NCBI RefSeq assembly: GCF_963675165.1
Contig: NC_087388.1
Coordinates: forward strand, 3,477,047-3,541,046
Reading direction: 5' to 3'
Source of the DNA: Halichondria panicea
Lineage: Eukaryota; Porifera; Demospongiae; Suberitida; Halichondriidae
DNA length: 64,000 nucleotides
Shown piece by piece: positions 268-10,734 of this stretch. The position numbers and the translations under genes were made by a program. Below the pieces are notes generated by a model. The model searched no databases, was not told where the DNA came from, and saw nothing but the letters and a program-made list of their open reading frames with translations. How positions within the stretch are numbered: the first letter of the stretch is position 1; each line of letters opens with the position of its first letter.

Positions 268-425
268 TCTGATATGTTGGGCTTTGTGAGCCGTCAGTCT
301 GATATGTTGGGCTTTGTGGGCAGCTGTTCGTCAGTCTGATATGTTGGGCCGTCAGTCTAATATGTTTGGTTTTACATGTGGGCACTTGCCCCTCTGTATG
401 ATATGTTGGGCTTTGTGCCGTCAGT
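268..425. repeat. Degenerate ~37-bp minisatellite
   Basis: Several imperfect copies of a unit reading roughly CAGTCTGATATGTTGGGCTT then TGTGGGCAGCTGTTCG, with deletions. The same unit is present in inverse orientation at about 35558-35795. An ORF read through it has no family resemblance and follows the repeat period, so I do not call it a gene. The rest of 1-1270 holds no gene that I can see. Confidence 0.75.
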
Positions 426-1272
426 ACAGTGTGTGACAAGGCTTCATAGTTAATTATGCATGCTACATGTCTCATCACTTCAGATTCTCTTTTAGACCAC
501 ACAATGGGACGAAAATCAAAAGTAACCAAGATTCAAGTCGAGTTTAGTTGGCTCTGTTGCACCTGAATCACATTTTGATTCACCTGGATGCTCAGTCACT
601 GGGATTTAGTTCACCTGGGTCATCAGTCACGTCTTTGGGAACATTTGGCTCACCTCCAGACTCAGTTGCGTGTTCGGACACATAGGTTGGTATGGATACA
701 ACAGCTTATCAATACGATTGCGATGTGATAGATGACTTCACTCTTGTGAACGGGAAATGATACACTACTTAAATATGATACACTACTTAAAATGGTAAAC
801 TTTCCTCAAAAGTCCGTGTTTATCATACCGAATGTGAATCCCTACGAGATCAAAGTGCATAAAATAAAGAAGGAATAGAGACTCAAATAACTCAATTAGA
901 AACTTTTATAAGAACATGTTATTTATGGCACCTCACACACCTCACACGGAGCAAAAATTTGTATCCTAAAAAGTTCTTGGCAAGTTCCTTGGTTTTGTGA
1001 TTACCAACAACCAAAGAGAGTAGATTTTTTTTTTTGGTACACATTTTTTACATTTTGTAAAGTGATATGATCTATTTGAGTGCAGGTACTGCCACCACCT
1101 GTTACATCATCAGTATAAAATGGCTGTCTGAAGATGTGTACTTCCGAAAATATGTTAGGAATAGAAGTACCTTATTTGTGATCTGAAAATTGTTGTGCAT
1201 GTACCTGACACCTGAGCTCATCTTTTGAGCTTCAACGGAAGTCTGGGCTACTAGTAAGTTCTGAGAAATACT

Positions 1273-1745
1273 TGTTTTTTGGTGGCAAATATGTTAGGAA
1301 TACAACTTTCGATTTTATATTAGTTAAGGTTTAAGGTCTGATTTTTGAGCAGCATGTACTACAATAGTGTACTTTTCATCTGTACTAACTTACAGGAGTT
1401 AGGCTAGGACAGGAGTTAGGCTAGGCTAGCCTCTTCTTTGCTAGAGCAGCCCATCTTCTACAGTGCTTTTTATGACTTTTGGGGTGATTTGGCTACGTTT
1501 AAGTTTGGCTACGTTTAAGCTCAATTACCACGCCCCTGGACATCACATGACCTTTGGATGTACCTTTGGATGTAGCAAATAACAACAAGATGATTAATGA
1601 ATATCATTGCATACGTCAGCAAAAGTAGCAAAACGGAGCAAAATCACCATTTTTGACCTCCTGTAAGTTAGACATCAGATTTTAACTAGCATAAAATCGA
1701 AAGTAAGTTGTATTCCTAATAACATATTTGCCACCAAAAAACAAC
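1273..1745. mobile_element. MITE-like element with ~45-bp terminal inverted repeats
   Basis: The left end (1273-1319) reads TTTTTTGGTGGCAAATATGT then TAGGAATACAACTTTCGATTTTAT. Its near-perfect reverse complement sits at 1693-1745. About 380 bp of non-coding DNA lies between. No transposase is inside, so it is non-autonomous; I cannot assign a superfamily because no clear target duplication is visible. Confidence 0.7.
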
Positions 1746-2298
1746 GGACGGAGAAAACCCGTGTGAACACTGTCACTTGTCACCCTGCGTCGTAGCTACA
1801 CCACCTAGCTGGTTGAGAGTAGCGGGAACTTGTGCAAGCGATTCAAGAAGTTTTGGACACTTTTGAGCGTCTTAGGAGCGTCTTAGGAGCGTCTTAGGAG
1901 TGTGGAAACACCCTTTATACATACTGCACAGGACAGGACAGAGGACAGGACAGAGGACAGGACAGAAGGGATGTAATGCCCACTTGTGTGCTAAGGGTAA
2001 GTTTCAAGTATTTTTGTACTTACATTGCAAATACAATCCATTTTGTTTCTCCAGGAGGTGCGTGGGCGGTTTCCGAACCCACCAGGAGTTCCGTACACAG
2101 ACTATAAATCGTCTTCTTCATTTATTGTCCATGCAAAAAAACAATTTTTGTTTTTGTTGTTGCTAAAAGTGCTCGCAAAGCTTAACGTTTTTTTAAACCT
2201 GGACACTTGCAAAATGAGCTTTCCTCACAGTCGTCGTGCTTGTTCTGTGAACACAATTTTTAATGGTAGCACCGCAAGTGGTTGATGCCTCGACAAAG
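1746..2298. other. Spacer with short tandem duplications
   Basis: No convincing gene. It contains GAGCGTCTTAG repeated three times (from 1865) and a GGACAGGACAGA repeat (about 1931-1968). ORFs reading across these repeats in two frames have no recognisable domain. This is probably the 3' flank of the transposase gene that ends at 2299. Confidence 0.5.
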
Positions 2299-3890
2299 CT
2301 ATAGACAACATGAAGGTAGATGTAGGCTCATCTGATAATGTTTGCTGATATTCAAAATGCTTTTCCGTAGCTTTTCTGCTGACTGAGCACAGTTCTTCAT
2401 ACAGTAGTACAAGTGGACTTTTGTACCTTTACCTGGTGGGAATTATGTTTATGTGGCTCAGCCATACGTTTGTCAGATAATCCTTGAGTCTTCTTGGTCC
2501 CAACTGCTAGTTTAGTCATCTTCTTGGCAACATTCTTGGTGCCTGTAAATACACTAACTCGATAATACAGAATGTACATTGCTATCACTTACCGTGCCAG
2601 GTGTCGTATGAATTCAAAAGGTTCAGCTCATCAGTGACGTATTTCTTCACTACAGGTTGATTGTCATGAGCTACTTCAACAATGTTGAGACCTACGATAA
2701 AAAACATGAAAGGCATGAGATACCATACCTTTTTCCAGAACTTGAGGAAGAACTATTTTGGTACACGCAACTTCTCGAGTCTGTGCACAAATATGTTCTT
2801 TTCTTGACACAGTCGAGCATCCAACAATTCTTTTCGTGCTAACAAGAATTAGATTGTAACATTATGTACTTACACAATTACCGACATACCTTCCTGACAG
2901 ACAAGGAACGGTGGTATTATACGCGTTGGCTGTAGAGTCGTGGCGAGCATCTGTTATTACCCACTGTTGATAAAGTCCGCTTGTTTCAAATACGATAAAA
3001 GACTCAAAAAATATTTACCTCGCCATTGGTAGAGTAATTAGGTGTTGCTTTCACTGCCTTCAGCACACGCGTCCACAGTGTCCAAGTCCACAGTGTCTAA
3101 GTACCCTCCTTTGTTATACACTGTAACCATACATTATTATTATTATGCCATTAGAGAACCATGCACCGGCATTGCTACTGAAGTGGATGTACTGACTTGG
3201 TAGAACTCCAGCACACGTGAAAGCATGAACGATCCTGGACCAAAAAGTCAAGCAAATAAAAATAATGACAAACTCACTTCTGGTTGACAATGTATCGTCC
3301 ACCTAGTGTTCGTGAGCTAGCCCACCACTGACGCCTTCCGCAATTGTCACATTGAAATTCAATGCGGAGGACGTGCCCCTTCTACAAAAAAATGTTTACA
3401 GACACTCGTATAAATTAGGCGCTACCTGAAGAGAGTATGACTGGCACTGACATGGTTGGGATAGACTAGCACACAGACGGGAAAATGTTGTTTGCTCACA
3501 AATGAAGAAAACTGGTCGTCACTGGCGTTGGCATTGCCAGTGATACAATTATTACTAACTTCTTCGTCATATAAAAATTAATATCAGAAATGACAAACCT
3601 GAATTCTCCAACATGGGCACGACATAAGATCGATTAGAGCCAGGGCAAACTCTGTCAGTTGTAACTATACCTTCAGCTGCCAGTTCCTCCATATTGTCCA
3701 ACAATCTAGAGAGAAGCTCTCTGTTGTCCAAGGGCAATGAGCCTCTGGCAGCAAGAACACGCTTAGCGCTGTCCATTTTGTCCCCGAACGTCTTCTTGGC
3801 CTCCTCCGTCTCGAACTTCAGCTCCAGTTGGTACCTAAAACCGTGCCTAGCACGTTTGTTTGGAAGAACATGAAATGAACTTTCAGCCAT
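2299..3890 (-). CDS. Kolobok-like DDE transposase, ten exons
   Basis: I reconstructed ten minus-strand exons with GT-AG borders and mostly matching phases: 3890-3599, 3511-3426, 3381-3278, 3234-~3145, 3120-3019, 2963-2890, 2838-2729, 2691-2593, 2542-2433, 2394-2299. The start is the ATG at 3890 (MAESSFHVLPNK). Exons 2-3 carry a Cys-rich zinc-binding-like stretch (CQC then CDNCGRRQWW). Exon 6 has ITDARHDSTANAY, exon 8 has VAHDNQP and exons 8-9 have YDTWHGTKNVAKKM; these Asp residues are in the arrangement I know from Kolobok-type transposases (D...D...DxWH). The product would cut and paste DNA at TTAA targets if the family call is right. Oddities: exon 4 appears to have lost a short piece relative to the copy at 24.6-24.8 kb, exon 5 carries a local duplication of GACACTGTGGA, and the C-terminus ends early. 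A decayed relative is at 24361-25150. Confidence 0.65.
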
Positions 3891-4216
3891 TTTTTTTGTT
3901 CTGGTTTGAACGAACTACCTCGTGCGAGAGCTCACGCTATACTCAGGAAGAAGGCGTATCAAAAAGAAGAGAAAGAATGTGCATTATACTGTCAAGGGCG
4001 TCTTTTTGCAAGACTTAAACAAATTCATCTTTTGCCATTTTTTCATTTCCCGTTGCATCCGGTCAGAGCTGTCCTGGGCACTTTTATAGTCAGCATGCTC
4101 GTTTAAGGGTAACTTTAGTAGGGACACTTTCTCATTTTGAGCACAACAACACTCACAAACACTAAACACAAACACTTAACTAAAACTAACGCAACACAAT
4201 GGCAGCACATATATAT
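3891..4216. other. 5' flank of the Kolobok-like gene
   Basis: No gene. Much of this stretch (to about 3965) is repeated next to the deleted copy near 25000-25110, which suggests it belongs to the element rather than to the host. A TTAA occurs at about 4101, but I could not find a matching opposite terminus, so the element's ends are undefined. Confidence 0.45.
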
Positions 4217-4254
4217 GGGGCGCCGTTTGTCTCAAAACTCCTAGGAAATATGAC

Positions 4255-5500
4255 CAGTGTAAAATTTTGAGGTTATATATATACTGACAGTCTACATATA
4301 TAAATAGGTGGTGAAGTATATATACTGACAGTGTACATTTATAAGTAGGGGTGTAGTATATATAGAGATAGGCATTATATATACTGACCATCTACATTTA
4401 TAAATACAGAGAGGCATTATATATACTGACGGTGTACACTTAATACTGAGAATCAACATTTTAAATAGAGTGGTGTTATATATACCGATCAACTACATTT
4501 ATATAAGTGTGCCACGCTTATAAACAGAGAGGTGACATATATATACCGACCTACTACATTTATGTAAGTGTGCCACGCTTATAAACAGAGAAAACAGAGA
4601 GGTGACATAATTATATATACCGACGGACTACATTTATATAAGTGTGCCACGCTTATAAACAGAGAGGTGACATATATATACCGACGGACTACATTTATAT
4701 AAGTTTACCACACTTATAAACAGTGAGGTAACATATATATACCGACCTACTACATTTATATAAGTGTGCCACGCTTATAAACAGAGAGGTGACATATATA
4801 TACCGACCTAATATACCGACCTACTACATTTATATAAGTGTGCCACGCTTATAAACAGAGAGGTGACATATATATACCGACGGACTACATTTATATAAGT
4901 GTGCCACGCTTATACAGAGAGGTGACATATATATACCGACGGACTACATTTATATAAGTTTACCACACTTATAAACAGTGAGGTAACATATATATACCGA
5001 CCTACTACATTTATATAAGTGTGCCACGCTTATAAACAGAGAGGTGACACATATTATATAACCGACGAACTACATTTATATAAGTGTACCACACTTATAA
5101 ATAGAGAGGTGACATATATATACCGACGGACTACATTTATATAAGTTTACCACGCTTATAAACAGTGAGGTAACATATATATATATACCGACCTACTACA
5201 TTTATATAAGTGTGCCACGCTTATAAACAGTGAGGTGACATATATATACCGACGGACTACATTTATATAAGTTTACCACGCTTATAAACAGTGAGGTAAC
5301 ATATATATACCGACCTACTACATTTATATAAGTGTGCCACGCTTATAAACAGTGAGGTGACATAATTATATATACCGACGGACTACATTTATATAAGTGT
5401 GCCACACTTATAAATAGAGAGGTGACATATATACACTGACCTACTACATTTATAAGTGTACCGGGCCACGCCGCTTATAACTCTGACAGAGAGGGATCAT
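4255..5500. repeat. 61-bp tandem array in the left terminal repeat
   Basis: About 18-20 copies of a 61-bp unit containing TATATATACCGAC, CTACATTTATATAAGTGTGC and CACGCTTATAAACAGAGAGG. Units nearest the outer end (4255-4470) are more diverged and shorter; inner units are nearly identical, and some alternate between GTGCCACGC and TTTACCACAC variants. The right array is shorter (about 10190-10665), so the arms expanded or contracted independently. Confidence 0.9.
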
Positions 5501-5619
5501 TACCCATTCTATAAGTATAACATCACGTGATTGTAGGCGTGCCATGTGCATAGTGAGAGATAGTGAGAGCCATATAGCCACTTGAAAAGAGACTTAGTTA
5601 GGTGAATCAGGTGAATCAG
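5501..5619 (+). promoter_or_regulatory. Inferred promoter/5'UTR of transposase, duplicated in the other arm
   Basis: Non-repeated segment between the 61-bp array and the first ATG (5620). It is conserved in inverse orientation at 10060-10190, upstream of the HECT gene's first exon. Both genes must therefore start from the same promoter sequence. I see no unambiguous TATA box placement; the call rests on position and conservation. Confidence 0.45.
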
Positions 5620-7170
5620 ATGGCCAACATATCTGTGAATGTTGGCACACTCTCCACTGCATTAGCTGCTGCACTACAGCAAGCTGTTGGTACCAATCAG
5701 CAGAGTGTAACACCTCGACCTCAGGCTCAAGCACAAGTACAGAGTCAGCCAGGACCCAGCCTGAGCAATATTCAGGGACCAAGTACAAGTGCAAGTACAA
5801 GTGGAAGTGTAGGGTGAGTGTGAGTGTGAGTGGCAGTGTAGCTAAGGTGGCACGTGCATGGGTAAGAAAATTAGTTTTAGTCTTGGGGGTTTGGCCTAAA
5901 TGTACCACCCAGAAACCTATTATAGTATGTGATCTATTATAGTATGTGATGTAATTACACTATGAATAATGACATAACGACCTCATTAATTGAACAAAAC
6001 CCTCTGCATTGTATATTTAATACAAACCTAGTATGCATAATAATGCCTGTGGTTTTTTCATTAACAGAGGGAGGCCTAAAGTATTGATTGACTTGGAAGA
6101 AGTTAAAACTTTACGGAGATTCAATTTTTCCTGGACTAAGATAGCCGAGATACTGGGTATATCAAGAGAGCAACCTTGTATAGACGCTTAACAGAAGCTG
6201 GGGTACCTACTGATGACAAATGTATGATTTCCGATAGTGATTTGGACAATTTGATCCGAATGATGGAGAGGTATTAATTCAAGGGCATCTAACAAGTAAA
6301 GACATAAAGGTAACTCGTGAAAGATTAAGACGTTCAATTCATCGTGTGACCATGAGAATACTGTGTCTCGCCAATCAAGTGTCGTAAAACGTCGAATTTA
6401 TTCTGTTCCCTATCCAAATACCATTTGGCATTTGGCATATCGATGGTAATCATAAATTAATTAAATGGCGTTTTGTTGTTCACGCTGGAGTGGACGGCTT
6501 TTCACGGTTAATTGCTTATGTTAAATGCTCAACTAACAATCAAGCTGCTACTGCATGTGCATCTTTTAATGAAGGAGTCGCAGCTTTTGGTGTACCGGAA
6601 AAGGTGCGGACCGATCACGGAGGTGAAAACATAAAACATTGACATTTGGCTATATATGATCCTGTGTCATGGAAACGATACTTCGTGTGTAATAACTGGT
6701 AGTTCTGTTCATAATGAGCGAGTTGAAAGGTTGTGGAGGGATGTTCATCGTTGTGTTTTGAGTATGTTTGGTGACTTGTTTTGTTGCTTAGAACAGGAAG
6801 CATTGCTCAACCCCTTGAATAAAGTGGATCTGTTCTGTTTACACTTCATCTTTTTACCACGCATTAATCGTAATTTACTTGAGTCAGAAACTTTCAACTG
6901 AAGGAAACCGATCACCTTATCAAAGAAGGGTTGCTGCACAAATCTGATGAGAGAAGTGTGGCACACGCGGCATTGGATGCTACGTCGTACCTAACTTCAC
7001 TGGTGGATAACCACGTTAATATACCTTCTGATGTGTTCACACCATGCGAAGCACTCATGCATAGTCTGTCATCAATTGATGTACTTGAAGAAAACCCTGA
7101 CAATGGCAAACAGTTGTATACAAGTGCTATTCAGTTAATTGGTAGCCAGCCACCTACTTGTAGGTTGTGA
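5620..7170 (+). pseudogene. rve-type DDE transposase/integrase, two exons, frame-broken
   Basis: Exon 1 is 5620-5813, starting MANISVNVGTLSTALAAALQ, an Ala/Gln/Ser-rich leader. The donor GG|GTGAGT at 5813 joins the acceptor AACAG at 6067 in frame. Exon 2 begins GGRPKVLIDLEEVK, then a helix-turn-helix-like stretch (SWTKIAEILGISR), then an rve (RNase H-fold) core. The catalytic acids I see are the Asp in IWHIDGNHKL (about 6437), the Asp in VRTDHGGENI (about 6610) and the Glu in NERVERLWRDV (about 6720). The C-terminal part ends with PPTCRL near 7170. The gene is interrupted by several small indels: near 6170 (ISR/TLYRR), about 6265, 6645 (before DIWLYM) and about 6900-6930. The domain family resembles the 'integrase catalytic domain' proteins abundant in fish, corals and sponges. 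Its partner is the convergent HECT gene. Confidence 0.75.
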
Positions 7171-7332
7171 TGACTGTGGAACTTAATTATTATGTTTAAT
7201 TAATGATAATAATAGAATTGCATGAAGTTAACGAAACGATTGTAACAATACATTCAATTCTGAACTGTCCAAATCAGCATGAATAATTCTCAAGTTCTAA
7301 ATCCGCATGAATAATTCAAAAGTCATTAAGTT

Positions 7333-10059
7333 CTAAACCTGTCCAAATCCGCATGATCCTAGAATACACAGGTCCATCATTTGTTGGAAATTGTCAGTTG
7401 ACATTTTAGAACATGATTGTGGGAACGTTAAGGTCAAAGAACAGGTGGAAACTGTAGGCAGCTGGTCAGCATCAGTAAAAGAAATTGACAGGGGATTCTC
7501 AAACCCAACTGCTGGTAAACACGTCGATCCAGTCATAAATCTTAGCACGTCTTGAAGTGTGATATTTAATAGTTTGTAACACTTACCAGGTAAATCAATG
7601 ATGTAATCTGACCAATGGAGAATGACAGCTTCTTCAAAAGTGCGCTTATTAGATCCATGATCGGAGTAATCAATTATTACTTCATCCAGAAAGAAATGTG
7701 TAGCAGAAAGAAATGTGTAGTGATCTTCAGTGAGGACGACGGCACCAACAAGGAATGCACCTCGTTTGGATACATGCATATGGGGAGCTCCATCTGCAAC
7801 GTTTCTCTAATACCTTTTCGTAGCTGTTGTAGCTCAGCGTGAATTGCAAAGAAGGCGTAGTGCAGCCATATGTAGTGCAGCCATATGCATTTAATTATTT
7901 CCTCTTTACAGGTGATATCAACAGAAGATACCAATTTCGAATAGCCACACTCAAAAATGAACTCGAAATGTTCTGATTGAAGCATTTCTTGTAACTCTTC
8001 ATCTTCAGTGGTGTCACATTTCTGCAGCTGAAAAAATTATACAGTTACACTCACATATTTGGCGCTTCTGACATAGTTCAGGAGTTCAGGAGTGGGTGTG
8101 GCCTAATATTTGTTTGGACCAACCTTTCGTGCCATTTTTAATGCTAAGTTCCCTACACTCCTAATAATGTAAGTAATCACTAATGACCCTTTCAATGAAG
8201 CTGTTGTACAATACTCAATACTCTATTTTGGAGTGCAAATACAACTTTGGAAGTTTGCTAAATTGCACTACACATTATAATTAGAGAGCGCATTAATTAG
8301 AGTCAGCCTTTAAATATATCACTTACTCTTTTCAAATGTTCACGAATCTCGTAATCAGGGATATCCTCTAACAAGGTGTGCTGATAACTTTATCAAACAC
8401 AATGAAATCTGCTGCTGCTTGAGAAAAGCACAAAGGTGGCTGACCACCTTGGACAATGCTTGTAGATATCATTTTCCCAATGATATAGAAGTGATTGTCG
8501 GCAACACCCTGAATACTATGGATTGGAAGATACTATGGATTGGAAGAACATTTTCAGGTGATCCACAAAATGGTGATCCACAAAATAATCCAGATTTAGC
8601 AAATGTGTCTCTCATTAGGATGGAAAAAAACTCCCTGCGTGGTCCCCCGTCATCCACAGCTCCCTCTCCAATGAGTGTCACCTTCAACATTTTAGAGACA
8701 TTAAAAGAAGGCTGAGAAAAGGCTTTGAAGGCATCAGAATAGAGTAATTTTCGTCGTATGTACACAGATTGCGTATCTTCCTCATCTTTAGCTTGGATGA
8801 CCTTTCGCTGGTGCTGTATCATTGCATGTTTGGCAACCACCATGTCTGGTGCTCTCTTCATCCTATGGACCAACTGATAAACCACTGAGAATCACCCCAT
8901 ATAAACCTTACTTGTTAATGGCCCGAGAATCCATTGAAATGGGAACAACAGGAAGATCATCTAATTCAGAGTCATCACTTTCCATGTTTGGTAATTCATC
9001 AGTGGTGAGGTCAATAACGTCAACATAATTCCTAATTGCAAAAATTATTTTATTGACAAAATAATTATACACATATAACTTACTGGTAACTACTTTCAGC
9101 AGAACTCAAAGATGTACTAACGGCAGGAGATTCGTTTTCAACTTTCTTTGAGGAAGCTTTCTTCGAGGAAGCTTTCTTTGAGAAAACTTTTTCAGCTTCA
9201 TCTGAAGATATTTCTGCATCTGAATGATCCTCATCCTCATGATCACTCTGTGTGAAATGGTAACACGTTATAAAAATGTAATGACATGCTGTTGAAATGT
9301 TTACGCTAGACTTTGATTAGCACTCAGTAACATGTAGCTCACCTCAAATGGTGTAAACAACTCAGTCTGTGCCATTATATATATGTTTCCTTTGGTTCCA
9401 CCGATCTTCACTACCTGCTGCACTGTCCATTCAAACGATGCCGACAAGGATGGGATGGTTAGCGAGCGACTTCCACAACCTGTTGACTGTAAGTAAATGT
9501 AAGGAAAGTCACGTTGATCCTTCATCGGCTGCTGAAACAACAGAGCGAATTTCGTCCTCGACTTCTTGCATGCTCATAATTATTTGAGTTGAGCCGTACC
9601 TTTCCAATCAACCCATTCTTCCCTAAGCTGTTCACGATATTTTCCCCTTGGGTAGGCGATATGCATATCTGCTGATTTCACTTTAGGGAGGCAAACGATG
9701 TCTCTGTCCCATGTTTGCAACGTTTTTTTGCGCTTTCTCGGGAGGGTAGAGTTACCCTTTCTTCTCTTCAGAAATGAAGGCAACACTGACCAAGGCATGT
9801 CTAAACAAACAAAAAACAGTACTGTTTTTGACTCTTCCGAATTCCATAGCTAGCTCCCACCTACATATTAAACTAACTGCCACTCACCCTACACTTGCAA
9901 CTTGCACTTATTGCTCAGGCTGGGTCCTGGCTGACTCTGTACTTGTGCTTGAGCCTGAGGTCGAGGTGTTACACTTTGCTGATTGGTACCAACAGCTTGC
10001 TGTAGTGCAGCAGCTAATGCAGTGGAGAGTGTGCCAACATTCACAGATATGTTGGCCAT
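7333..10059 (-). pseudogene. HECT-type E3 ubiquitin ligase (G2E3-like) carried by the transposon
   Basis: Eight minus-strand exons: 10059-9888 (shared leader MANISVNVG), 9800-9600, 9531-9343, 9247-9084, 9031-8912, 8873-8337, 8027-7587, 7550-7333. Exon 4 is acidic/Lys-rich (SDHEDEDHSDAE, three KKASS repeats). Exon 5 has VDVIDLTTDE, a classic SUMO-interaction-like motif. Exons 6-8 form a HECT domain: LIGEGAVDDGGPRREFF, then IIGKMISTSIVQGGQPP, EDIPDYEIREHL, LRFMTGSTCLPAVGF, and the catalytic-Cys segment LPTVSTCSLTLTF; the C-terminus GFGQV is typical. A HECT ligase takes ubiquitin from an E2 onto this Cys and passes it to substrates. Damage: exon 1 has an in-frame TAG just before its donor, exon 6 has a 17-bp tandem duplication near 8515-8545 that shifts frame, and exon 7 has another near 7690-7720. 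The border of exons 2-3 is not phase-consistent in my reading. Confidence 0.75.
9888..10059 (-). other. Right-arm copy of the shared first exon
   Basis: Nearly identical, in inverse orientation, to 5620-5813, with a 22-bp internal deletion. It encodes the same leader MANISVNVGTLSTALAAALQ. The deletion changes the exon's phase from 2 to 1, which matches the frame of the next HECT exon (9800), but it also leaves a TAG one codon before the donor. Confidence 0.75.
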
Positions 10060-10189
10060 CTGATTCACCTAACTAAGTCTCTTTTCAAGTGGCTATATGG
10101 CTCTCACTATATATGCACATGGCACGCCTACAATCACGTGATGTTATACTTATAGAATGGGTAATGAATAGAATGGGTAATGATCCCTC

Positions 10190-10665
10190 TCTGTCAGAGT
10201 TATAAGCGGCGTGGCCCGGTACACTTATAAATGTAGTAGGTCAGTGTATATATGTCACCTCTCTATTTATAAGTGTGGCACACTTATATAAATGTAGTCC
10301 GTCGGTATATATATGTCACCTCTCTGTTTATAAGCGTGGCACACTTATATAAATGTAGTAGGTCGGTATATATATGTCACCTCTCTGTTTATAAGCGTGG
10401 CACACTTATATAAATGTAGTTGATCGGTATATATAACACCACTCTATTTAAAATGTTGATTCTCAGTATTATATTTGATGCTCTATTTATAAGTGTACAC
10501 CGTCAGTATATATAATGCCTCTCTGTATTTATAAATGTAGATGGTCAGTATATATAATGCCTATCTCTATATATACTACACCCCTACTTATAAATGTACA
10601 CTGTCAGTATATATACTTCACCACCTATTTATATATGTAGACTGTCAGTATATATATAACCTCAA
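10190..10665. repeat. 61-bp tandem array in the right terminal repeat
   Basis: Reverse-complement counterpart of the 4255-5500 array, with far fewer units (about 7-8). The outermost, shorter units (10450-10665) match the outermost left units almost one for one, showing that the outer part was conserved while the inner array contracted. Confidence 0.85.
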
Positions 10666-10734
10666 TTACACTGGTCATATTTCCTAGGAGTTTTGAGACA
10701 AACGGCGCCCCATACATATATAGGGTCAGGGTTT

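Follow-up and report, generated by a model that had tools for sequence, protein, structure and literature searches.

Why would a DNA transposon carry a gene for a ubiquitin ligase? The question is raised by a 64,000-nt stretch of the genome of the sponge Halichondria panicea (NC_087388.1, positions 3,477,047 to 3,541,046; hereafter the window), for which an earlier reading of the letters alone (the original prediction) had proposed that one pair of long inverted repeats encloses an rve-type transposase gene and a convergent, multi-exon gene for a HECT ubiquitin ligase. According to our analysis, the locus is very probably a decayed member of an H. panicea cut-and-paste lineage of the IS3EU superfamily that has a HECT E3 ligase as its second core gene. 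The HECT gene is no one-off cargo, and the window element is one of a large set.

Structure of the window element

The element spans positions 4214–10714 of the window; its ends are TATGG..CCATA, and its target duplication is 6 bp long. The original prediction had recognized the same element, its boundaries (4217–10711) falling three bases short at each end. The terminus TATGGGGCGCCGTTTG begins at 4214 with TATGGGG, its complement finishes at 10714, and identical copies of CATATA lie outside both ends, at 4208–4213 on the left and at 10715–10720 on the right. Inverted-repeat arms of 176 nt (100%), 151 nt (99%), 146 nt (100%) and 162 nt (99%; pairs I3, I5, I6 and I4, respectively) were found between approximately 4214–5770 and 9909–10714. 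The left terminal inverted repeat (TIR; 4214–5770, + strand) comprises the terminus TATGGGGCGCCGTTTGTCTC, a subterminal array of ~61-bp repeats (direct-repeat families D1–D2) and most of the first transposase exon. It is longer than the right TIR (9909–10714, – strand), the terminus of which was also read, and the excess stems from the repeat array.

Both genes that had been proposed to lie between these repeats were recovered by profile searches. On the + strand, PF24764 (rva_4) matched in two pieces in different frames (E = 5.1e-30 and 4e-24), and at least two shifts between open transposase frames occur, around 6640 and around 6890. The predicted exon 1 (MANISVNVGTLSTALAAALQQA...; 5620–5813, + strand) lies within the TIR, its 3′ end being set at a GT donor predicted from the sequence; positions 5620–5796 are 98.9% identical to HECT exon 1 of a sister copy on contig C6, and the homologous exon of a related family, termed family B, has both donor and acceptor. 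Exon 2 (6068–7186, + strand) encodes a helix-turn-helix (HTH)-like region and the rva_4 DDE core in a broken frame (93% to the open frame on C6), with the catalytic codons at 6442–6444 (D), 6613–6615 (D) and 6725–6727 (E). The HECT gene lies on the – strand, where PF00632 matched the C-lobe (E = 5.2e-10), and eight exon-like blocks, 91–100% identical to the sister copy, run from 10059 to 7333. Exon 1 (9909–10059), located within the right TIR, would encode the same N-terminal peptide as the transposase, as judged from arm I4, the sister-copy alignment and a peptide search. It is followed by exon 2 with an N-terminal accessory domain (RDIVCLP...; 9342–9801; 97% to the sister copy), which has a homologous exon in family B copy C7b, a linker block (9081–9247; 99%), an acidic linker block (8911–9031; 100%), an N-lobe block (8325–8895; 91%, and 54–55% amino-acid identity to family B copies), two further blocks (7887–8030, 96%; 7587–7838, 93%) and the last exon (7333–7567), which contains the C-lobe with the catalytic Cys codon at 7441–7443. 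The catalytic-Cys segment and the HECT C-terminus are recognizable, as the original prediction had stated. It had made no mention of the first coding exons within the arms or of decay: the transposase frame is broken, and short tandem duplications are located in the HECT blocks at 7687 and 8513.

Exact tandem duplications in the window showed a sharp peak at a unit of 17 nt (24 cases, compared with 10 at 16, 3 at 18 and 2 at 19; e.g., at 5917, 7687, 8513 and 11192). A single shuffle of the window yielded one tandem duplication of any unit length of at least 8. Among seven 12–17 bp duplications inside the element, five are single in the C6 sister copy and therefore arose in the window copy, while two could not be matched. 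Other fetched loci gave 12, 13 and 11 tandem duplications at units of 16, 17 and 18, plus a 20-bp class. The peak reflects either a mutational process with a ceiling of 17–18 bp or an assembly artefact.

Sister copies and related families

The original prediction had suggested a search for further copies with the ends of this element, and the genome (131 Mb, 39 contigs) was searched. The 17-bp end of the window element occurs five times, at both ends of the element itself, at both ends of C6:6879874-6894639 and once on C9, where the matching stretch extends over only ~560 bp. The C6 locus, the one other full copy found, carries both genes (~93% identity), its own 6-bp duplication GAAAGC and an open transposase frame of 400 aa. 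It is interrupted between the genes by 7.2 kb, and this insert holds another convergent pair of rva_4 and HECT matches; the HECT gene of the C6 copy also has frame changes. Since the window and C6 copies are both frame-broken, both copies of this family (family A) are worn. A frame in the transposase intron of the C6 copy (L006/L007) was read by eye, without a profile, as a reverse transcriptase.

Less worn copies were found in family B, which comprises six merged copies (three on C7 and one each on C17, C10 and C5) that are 96–99.5% identical in their longest matches of 2.7–4.8 kb covering both genes. Family B has the ends TATGAGGTGCCGTTTG, and the two copies read at both ends are flanked by the duplications TATGCG and CGTGGC. 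Both genes are present in 8/8 family B loci examined. Together with the C6 copy and its own duplication, this finding upholds the proposal that the window holds one transposon, the tail-to-tail genes of which lie between its ends and are mobile together. In copy C7b, both genes are open in our models, with a two-exon transposase of 428 aa and a seven-exon HECT protein of 702 aa. The database model P0001 (395 aa) agrees with the C7b HECT core except for the start, the end and two splice junctions, each of which makes our model a few residues shorter than P0001.

The family B transposase matched PF24764 (E = 9.9e-79) and PF00665 (E = 8.4e-9), as well as HTH_7 just below the cut-off (E = 5.4e-5; 23.7 vs 23.8 bits), and no zinc-finger family was present among the 11 families listed by this profile search. 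A protein-database search with the transposase returned 2221 matches at E ≤ 1e-5. Pattern scans for its relatives in viral_contigs and genome_contigs matched 13 and 169 stretches, respectively, none of which was confirmed.

Across the families, exact 6-bp duplications flank 11 of the 14 elements read, namely the window copy, the C6 copy, two family B copies and 7 of 10 fetched end pairs; the exceptions are C1a and m3, where the duplication is not exact, and C3m, where it is shifted by one base. An end-pattern search gave 586 matches at ≤1 mismatch vs 51 in a reversed control, among the matches listed, and was not used alone as evidence. End pairs only 0.6–1.4 kb apart on C1, C3 and C5 (L085–L100) delimit short elements with the same ends, and exact 6-bp duplications were read in 6/8 of them. 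Short derivatives with the same ends are usual for DNA transposons. At C4:2652690-2658100 (L080) we noted a family with ends TATGGCACGCCGTTTG spaced 11–12 kb apart, in which the HECT gene lies downstream on the transposase strand and is not convergent.

Genome-wide linkage of transposase and HECT genes

PF24764 yielded 156 matches in the genome (150 of 234 candidates scored), and the 150 listed matches were merged into 113 rva_4 clusters. HECT matches, obtained with PF00632 at E ≤ 0.01 (120 matches) and four single-protein queries, formed 130 clusters. For 76 of the 113 rva_4 clusters, the 4.5 kb downstream contain a HECT match on the opposite strand, the gap having a median of 715 bp (range 335–3291). 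Five further clusters have a downstream HECT match on the same strand only (tandem), and the other 32 have no match. When the 130 HECT clusters were placed at random, with rough guesses for the lengths of C8, C13 and C20, the mean number of convergent pairs was 0.43 and the maximum was 3 in 1000 trials. Sites with only an upstream HECT match were not observed (0), a finding that speaks against simple crowding of matches where repeats abound. The convergent count rose from 45/113 with PF00632 and the first query to 69 with two more queries and then to 76, so that 76/113 is a lower bound.

Restricting the count to 66 near-complete rva_4 cores gave 51 convergent and 4 tandem cases, and 11 without HECT within 4.5 kb. 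Two of these 11 have a convergent HECT match at 7.4 and 8.8 kb, the latter being the C6 copy with its insertion. Full copies lacking the HECT gene, named in the original prediction as evidence against it, were found in neither family A nor family B, but elsewhere 9 of the 66 cores had no HECT match nearby. Four of the nine belong to a family with a HECT match in three sister copies. The near-complete cores at C10:3899528, C14:2657228, C16:3891756, C6:2972264 and C6:2978661, where no HECT was found, could possibly represent HECT-free lineages or host-adopted transposases.

These data bear on another explanation of the ligase genes, according to which they would be host genes resembling G2/M-phase-specific E3 ligases with a chance transposon insertion nearby. 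The NCBI record of the H. panicea protein P0001, which is 96% identical to the family B HECT protein, does carry the name "G2/M phase-specific E3 ubiquitin-protein ligase-like". However, both genes lie between TIRs and target duplications at different sites, the near-identity of family B extends over both genes, and a null mean of 0.43 compared with 76 observed pairs led us to reject the idea that host HECT genes are neighbours by chance. The duplication-bounded copies (window, C6, C5, C7a and C1b) refute a host gene for families A, B and C, and overall we give this explanation almost no credence. In contrast to its host-style name, the family B HECT gene is a transposon gene. Proteins called G2/M phase-specific E3 ubiquitin-protein ligase-like are spread in fish and corals; some sponge ligases named like host genes are transposon genes, and perhaps the same applies in other animals.

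Sequence constraint and gene trees

Constraint on the HECT frame, proposed earlier as a check by Ka/Ks, was assessed between and within families. Between families A–E (10 pairs, 303–340 codons; the blocks of A and E were taken from frame-broken copies), amino-acid identity is 28–52%, and the proportions of nonsynonymous (pN) and synonymous (pS) differences are 0.33–0.53 and 0.73–0.86. The corresponding substitution estimate dN is 0.43–0.92; dS is saturated in 8/10 pairs, and dN/dS amounts to 0.28 and 0.32 in the other two. Within family B, the HECT cores of five copies differ from C7b by 8 synonymous and 4 nonsynonymous changes and one stop, with small last-exon insertions in two copies. Transposase exon 2 of five copies differs from C7b by 14 synonymous changes, 1 nonsynonymous change and one stop; two of the copies also have small deletions. 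These copies share history, so their differences are not independent events. The values argue that natural selection has preserved the HECT gene.

For gene trees, 24 representatives with sequence in hand were used, two pairs of which are near-identical. The catalytic Cys (TC motif, C-lobe) is present in 24/24, as is the second Asp of the transposase. The first Asp is absent from 12/24 rows, owing to a split exon or a later row start. The Glu motif was matched in 41 of 50 loci, with Glu in 41/41; the other nine did not fit the expression used. Transposase and HECT C-lobe distances are correlated (r = 0.49, p = 0.0001, 9999 permutations), and several groups recur in both trees: A with B, D with C14, F with two C5 elements, C11 with C7_6142, and C1_17025 with C7_6052, while G, C16 and C4 fall near one another.

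A first exon common to both genes

In the window, the predicted first coding exon of both genes lies inside the TIR arms, with ATG codons at 5620 (+) and 10059 (–) in arms that are 99% identical over 162 nt. The exon-1 versions at the two ends of family B have diverged (MAEGVNVGVLSSALAVSIQQA.. and MAEGSISVNVGVLSSALAVAIQQA..), and both are still open. A genome search with the exon-1 peptide (E ≤ 0.1) returned 19 matches, corresponding to both ends of nine elements and one end of a tenth, and nothing else; in the C17 element, the two matches are 20 kb apart. Among 120 listed database transposases, two (P0053 and P0057) start with a similar peptide before the HTH region. In the clade of families A and B, the TIRs have extended over exon 1, so that transposase and ligase would start with the same peptide; the use of this exon is suggested by splice signals and frames. 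We know of no other transposon in which two partner genes have an exon in common through inverted repeats, a point for which the literature was not searched.

Core gene or passive cargo

Several observations weigh against the explanation that we consider best, in which the ligase is a second core gene and acts at the transposase complex. A 977-bp deletion removes HECT exons 2–3 at three places (C7a, C7c and C5), exon 1 remaining in frame with the next exon in C7a and C5, and in several family B copies one or other of the two genes carries a stop or small indels. Three of the nine near-complete cores without a HECT match nearby have open frames of 368, 407 and 450 aa; not every lineage therefore needs the ligase in cis. 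With regard to the common exon, exon 1 is missing from the database transposase model P0009 (18 members), which is 100% identical to family B and has its start ATG in the tail of the intron. No such exon was seen with the transposases of families C and D. The common exon is thus confined to the A/B clade and cannot explain the partnership in general. The trees conflict as well: the transposase tree joins A, B and C15 with the G group (97/96) and the HECT C-lobe tree splits A and B from the G group (100/100); C11 and C7_6142 switch sides, and the partners of C15_3186k and C differ between the trees. The association thus appears to be old, with deep exchange of one gene or the other, unless the conflicts are an artefact of an alignment of only 76 columns. 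Finally, AF2 gave a model of P0001 (13 rows) that is of low quality except in the N-lobe: the mean pLDDT is 51, with block means of 63–93 for residues 61–170.

DNA transposons do capture genes, and the nine cores would fit a HECT gene that was taken up from the host as passive cargo and brings the element no benefit. The constraint on the gene, the invariant catalytic Cys, the recurrent tail-to-tail position in 76 of 113 clusters and a recent copy with both genes open stand against it, and we strongly disfavour passive cargo as a very improbable explanation. We thus retain the ligase as a second core gene, the preservation of which suggests that the element gains from tagging its own or host proteins.

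Possible functions of the ligase

Both profile and fold searches assign a HECT domain to the protein itself. The family B protein matched PF00632 (E = 5.5e-11), a sequence search of the PDB returned HECT ligases (best 7e-6), and a Foldseek search with the P0001 model gave a best value of 1.4e-6, the best 50 of 184 PDB matches all being HECT ligase entries by description. HECT searches of the protein database, each with ~7990 candidates scored, gave 1 match and 7 matches. The N-terminal regions are diverse. Families C and D have an AGLGEK..GGF.L..C..IRP.Q region, to which family D adds a CxxC..HxxxC finger. Stretches of P0002, an H. panicea protein, and of P0003 were read as ubiquitin-interacting motifs and matched no profile; P0003 (Em0018g519a, presumably from Ephydatia muelleri) is a relative at E = 4.6e-66. 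The N-terminal region also has a relative in a mollusc, P0008, whose 249 aa include a zf_C2HC_14 finger (E = 1.1e-6) and no HECT domain.

Taken as a whole, the explanation that we consider best, an element-encoded E3 ligase as second core gene acting at the transposase complex, has in our view about an even chance of being right. The transposase, with its HTH-like region and DDE core, would act on the TATGG..CCATA ends and insert the element with 6-bp duplications, while the ligase gene would be read inward from the opposite TIR, tail to tail with the transposase gene. In the A/B clade, both proteins would bear the same N-terminal peptide, and the near-identical TIRs may provide a common promoter and common timing and thus co-expression. 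Either the common N-terminus or the accessory domains at the N-terminus of the ligase might then hold the ligase at the transposase–DNA complex, where it might ubiquitinate the transposase, clearing or limiting it, or other proteins encountered there. That the ligase works there, tagging the transposase or proteins encountered at this site, is a tentative proposal to which we assign somewhat less than an even chance. Its most specific form, in which a ligase with the same N-terminal exon controls the complex at the element ends through turnover, disassembly or local chromatin modification, so that the element itself would gate its transposition through ubiquitin, is speculative and rather unlikely.

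Alternatively, the ligase could act away from the transposase and mark a host factor involved in silencing or DNA repair for degradation. Such an anti-defence role would be comparable to that of TET/JBP genes in fungi: according to the accessible text of PMC12730594, fungal IS3EU elements may contain a TET/JBP gene, for which a role in the escape of transposons from methylation has been proposed, as well as an alpha-kinase gene. It would also suit the N-terminal accessory regions, which could bind substrates or ubiquitin, as the finger of the mollusc relative illustrates; however, the N-terminal exon common to both genes in the A/B clade speaks for the transposase, and a candidate host target is not known. 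The odds are somewhat against this role, which we consider nearly as likely as action at the transposase complex. One animal genome here offers many lineages for comparison, with the ligase linked to most transposase copies.

Comparison with known systems

In families A, B and C, both element ends read TATGGGG, TATGAGG or TATGGAA, giving TA..TA termini. These ends, the 6-bp duplications and the integrase-type DDE transposase without an HHCC finger place the element in the IS3EU superfamily, a probable assignment based on these features; the original prediction had left the superfamily open. In the accessible text of PMC10045372, IS3EU elements have TA..TA termini, usually 6-bp duplications and no HHCC motif, and the sponge elements resemble IS3EU/GingerRoot in all these respects. 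They differ from that description in that the sponge lineages mostly have a HECT gene and one clade has a common first exon borne on the TIRs; "HECT" and "ubiquitin" do not occur in the accessible text of PMC10045372.

The TET-positive IS3EU elements of fungi share with the sponge elements the superfamily, the TAYGG..CCRTA ends and a second gene opposite in orientation to the transposase (PMC12730594, accessible text). In fungi, this second gene encodes an alpha-kinase and the TET/JBP gene lies between, whereas the second gene in the sponge encodes a HECT ligase; neither "HECT" nor "ubiquitin" appears in the accessible main text of PMC12730594. In the literature covered, we saw no report of a HECT gene in a DNA transposon; Repbase and most subscription papers lie outside this coverage, so this is no proof of priority.

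Ginger1 provides the nearest parallel on the ubiquitin side, as another integrase-type transposon tied to the ubiquitin/SUMO system. It features a zinc finger and a GPY/F motif (PMC2836005, accessible text) and 4-bp duplications (PMC10045372, accessible text). Identity with Ginger1 was rejected, as no zinc finger ahead of the DDE core was listed for family B and the duplications are 6 bp, not 4 bp. Ginger1 transposases carry C-terminal OTU or Ulp1 protease domains, from which the authors suggested a role of the ubiquitin pathway in transposition; "HECT" is absent from the accessible main text of PMC2836005. While Ginger1 has deconjugating proteases within the transposase, the sponge element has a conjugating ligase on a gene of its own. 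Protease domains of Ginger1 and other transposons had prompted the earlier suggestion that ubiquitin has a role in transposition (PMC2836005, accessible text). With the conjugating side encoded on the element, this suggestion becomes testable.

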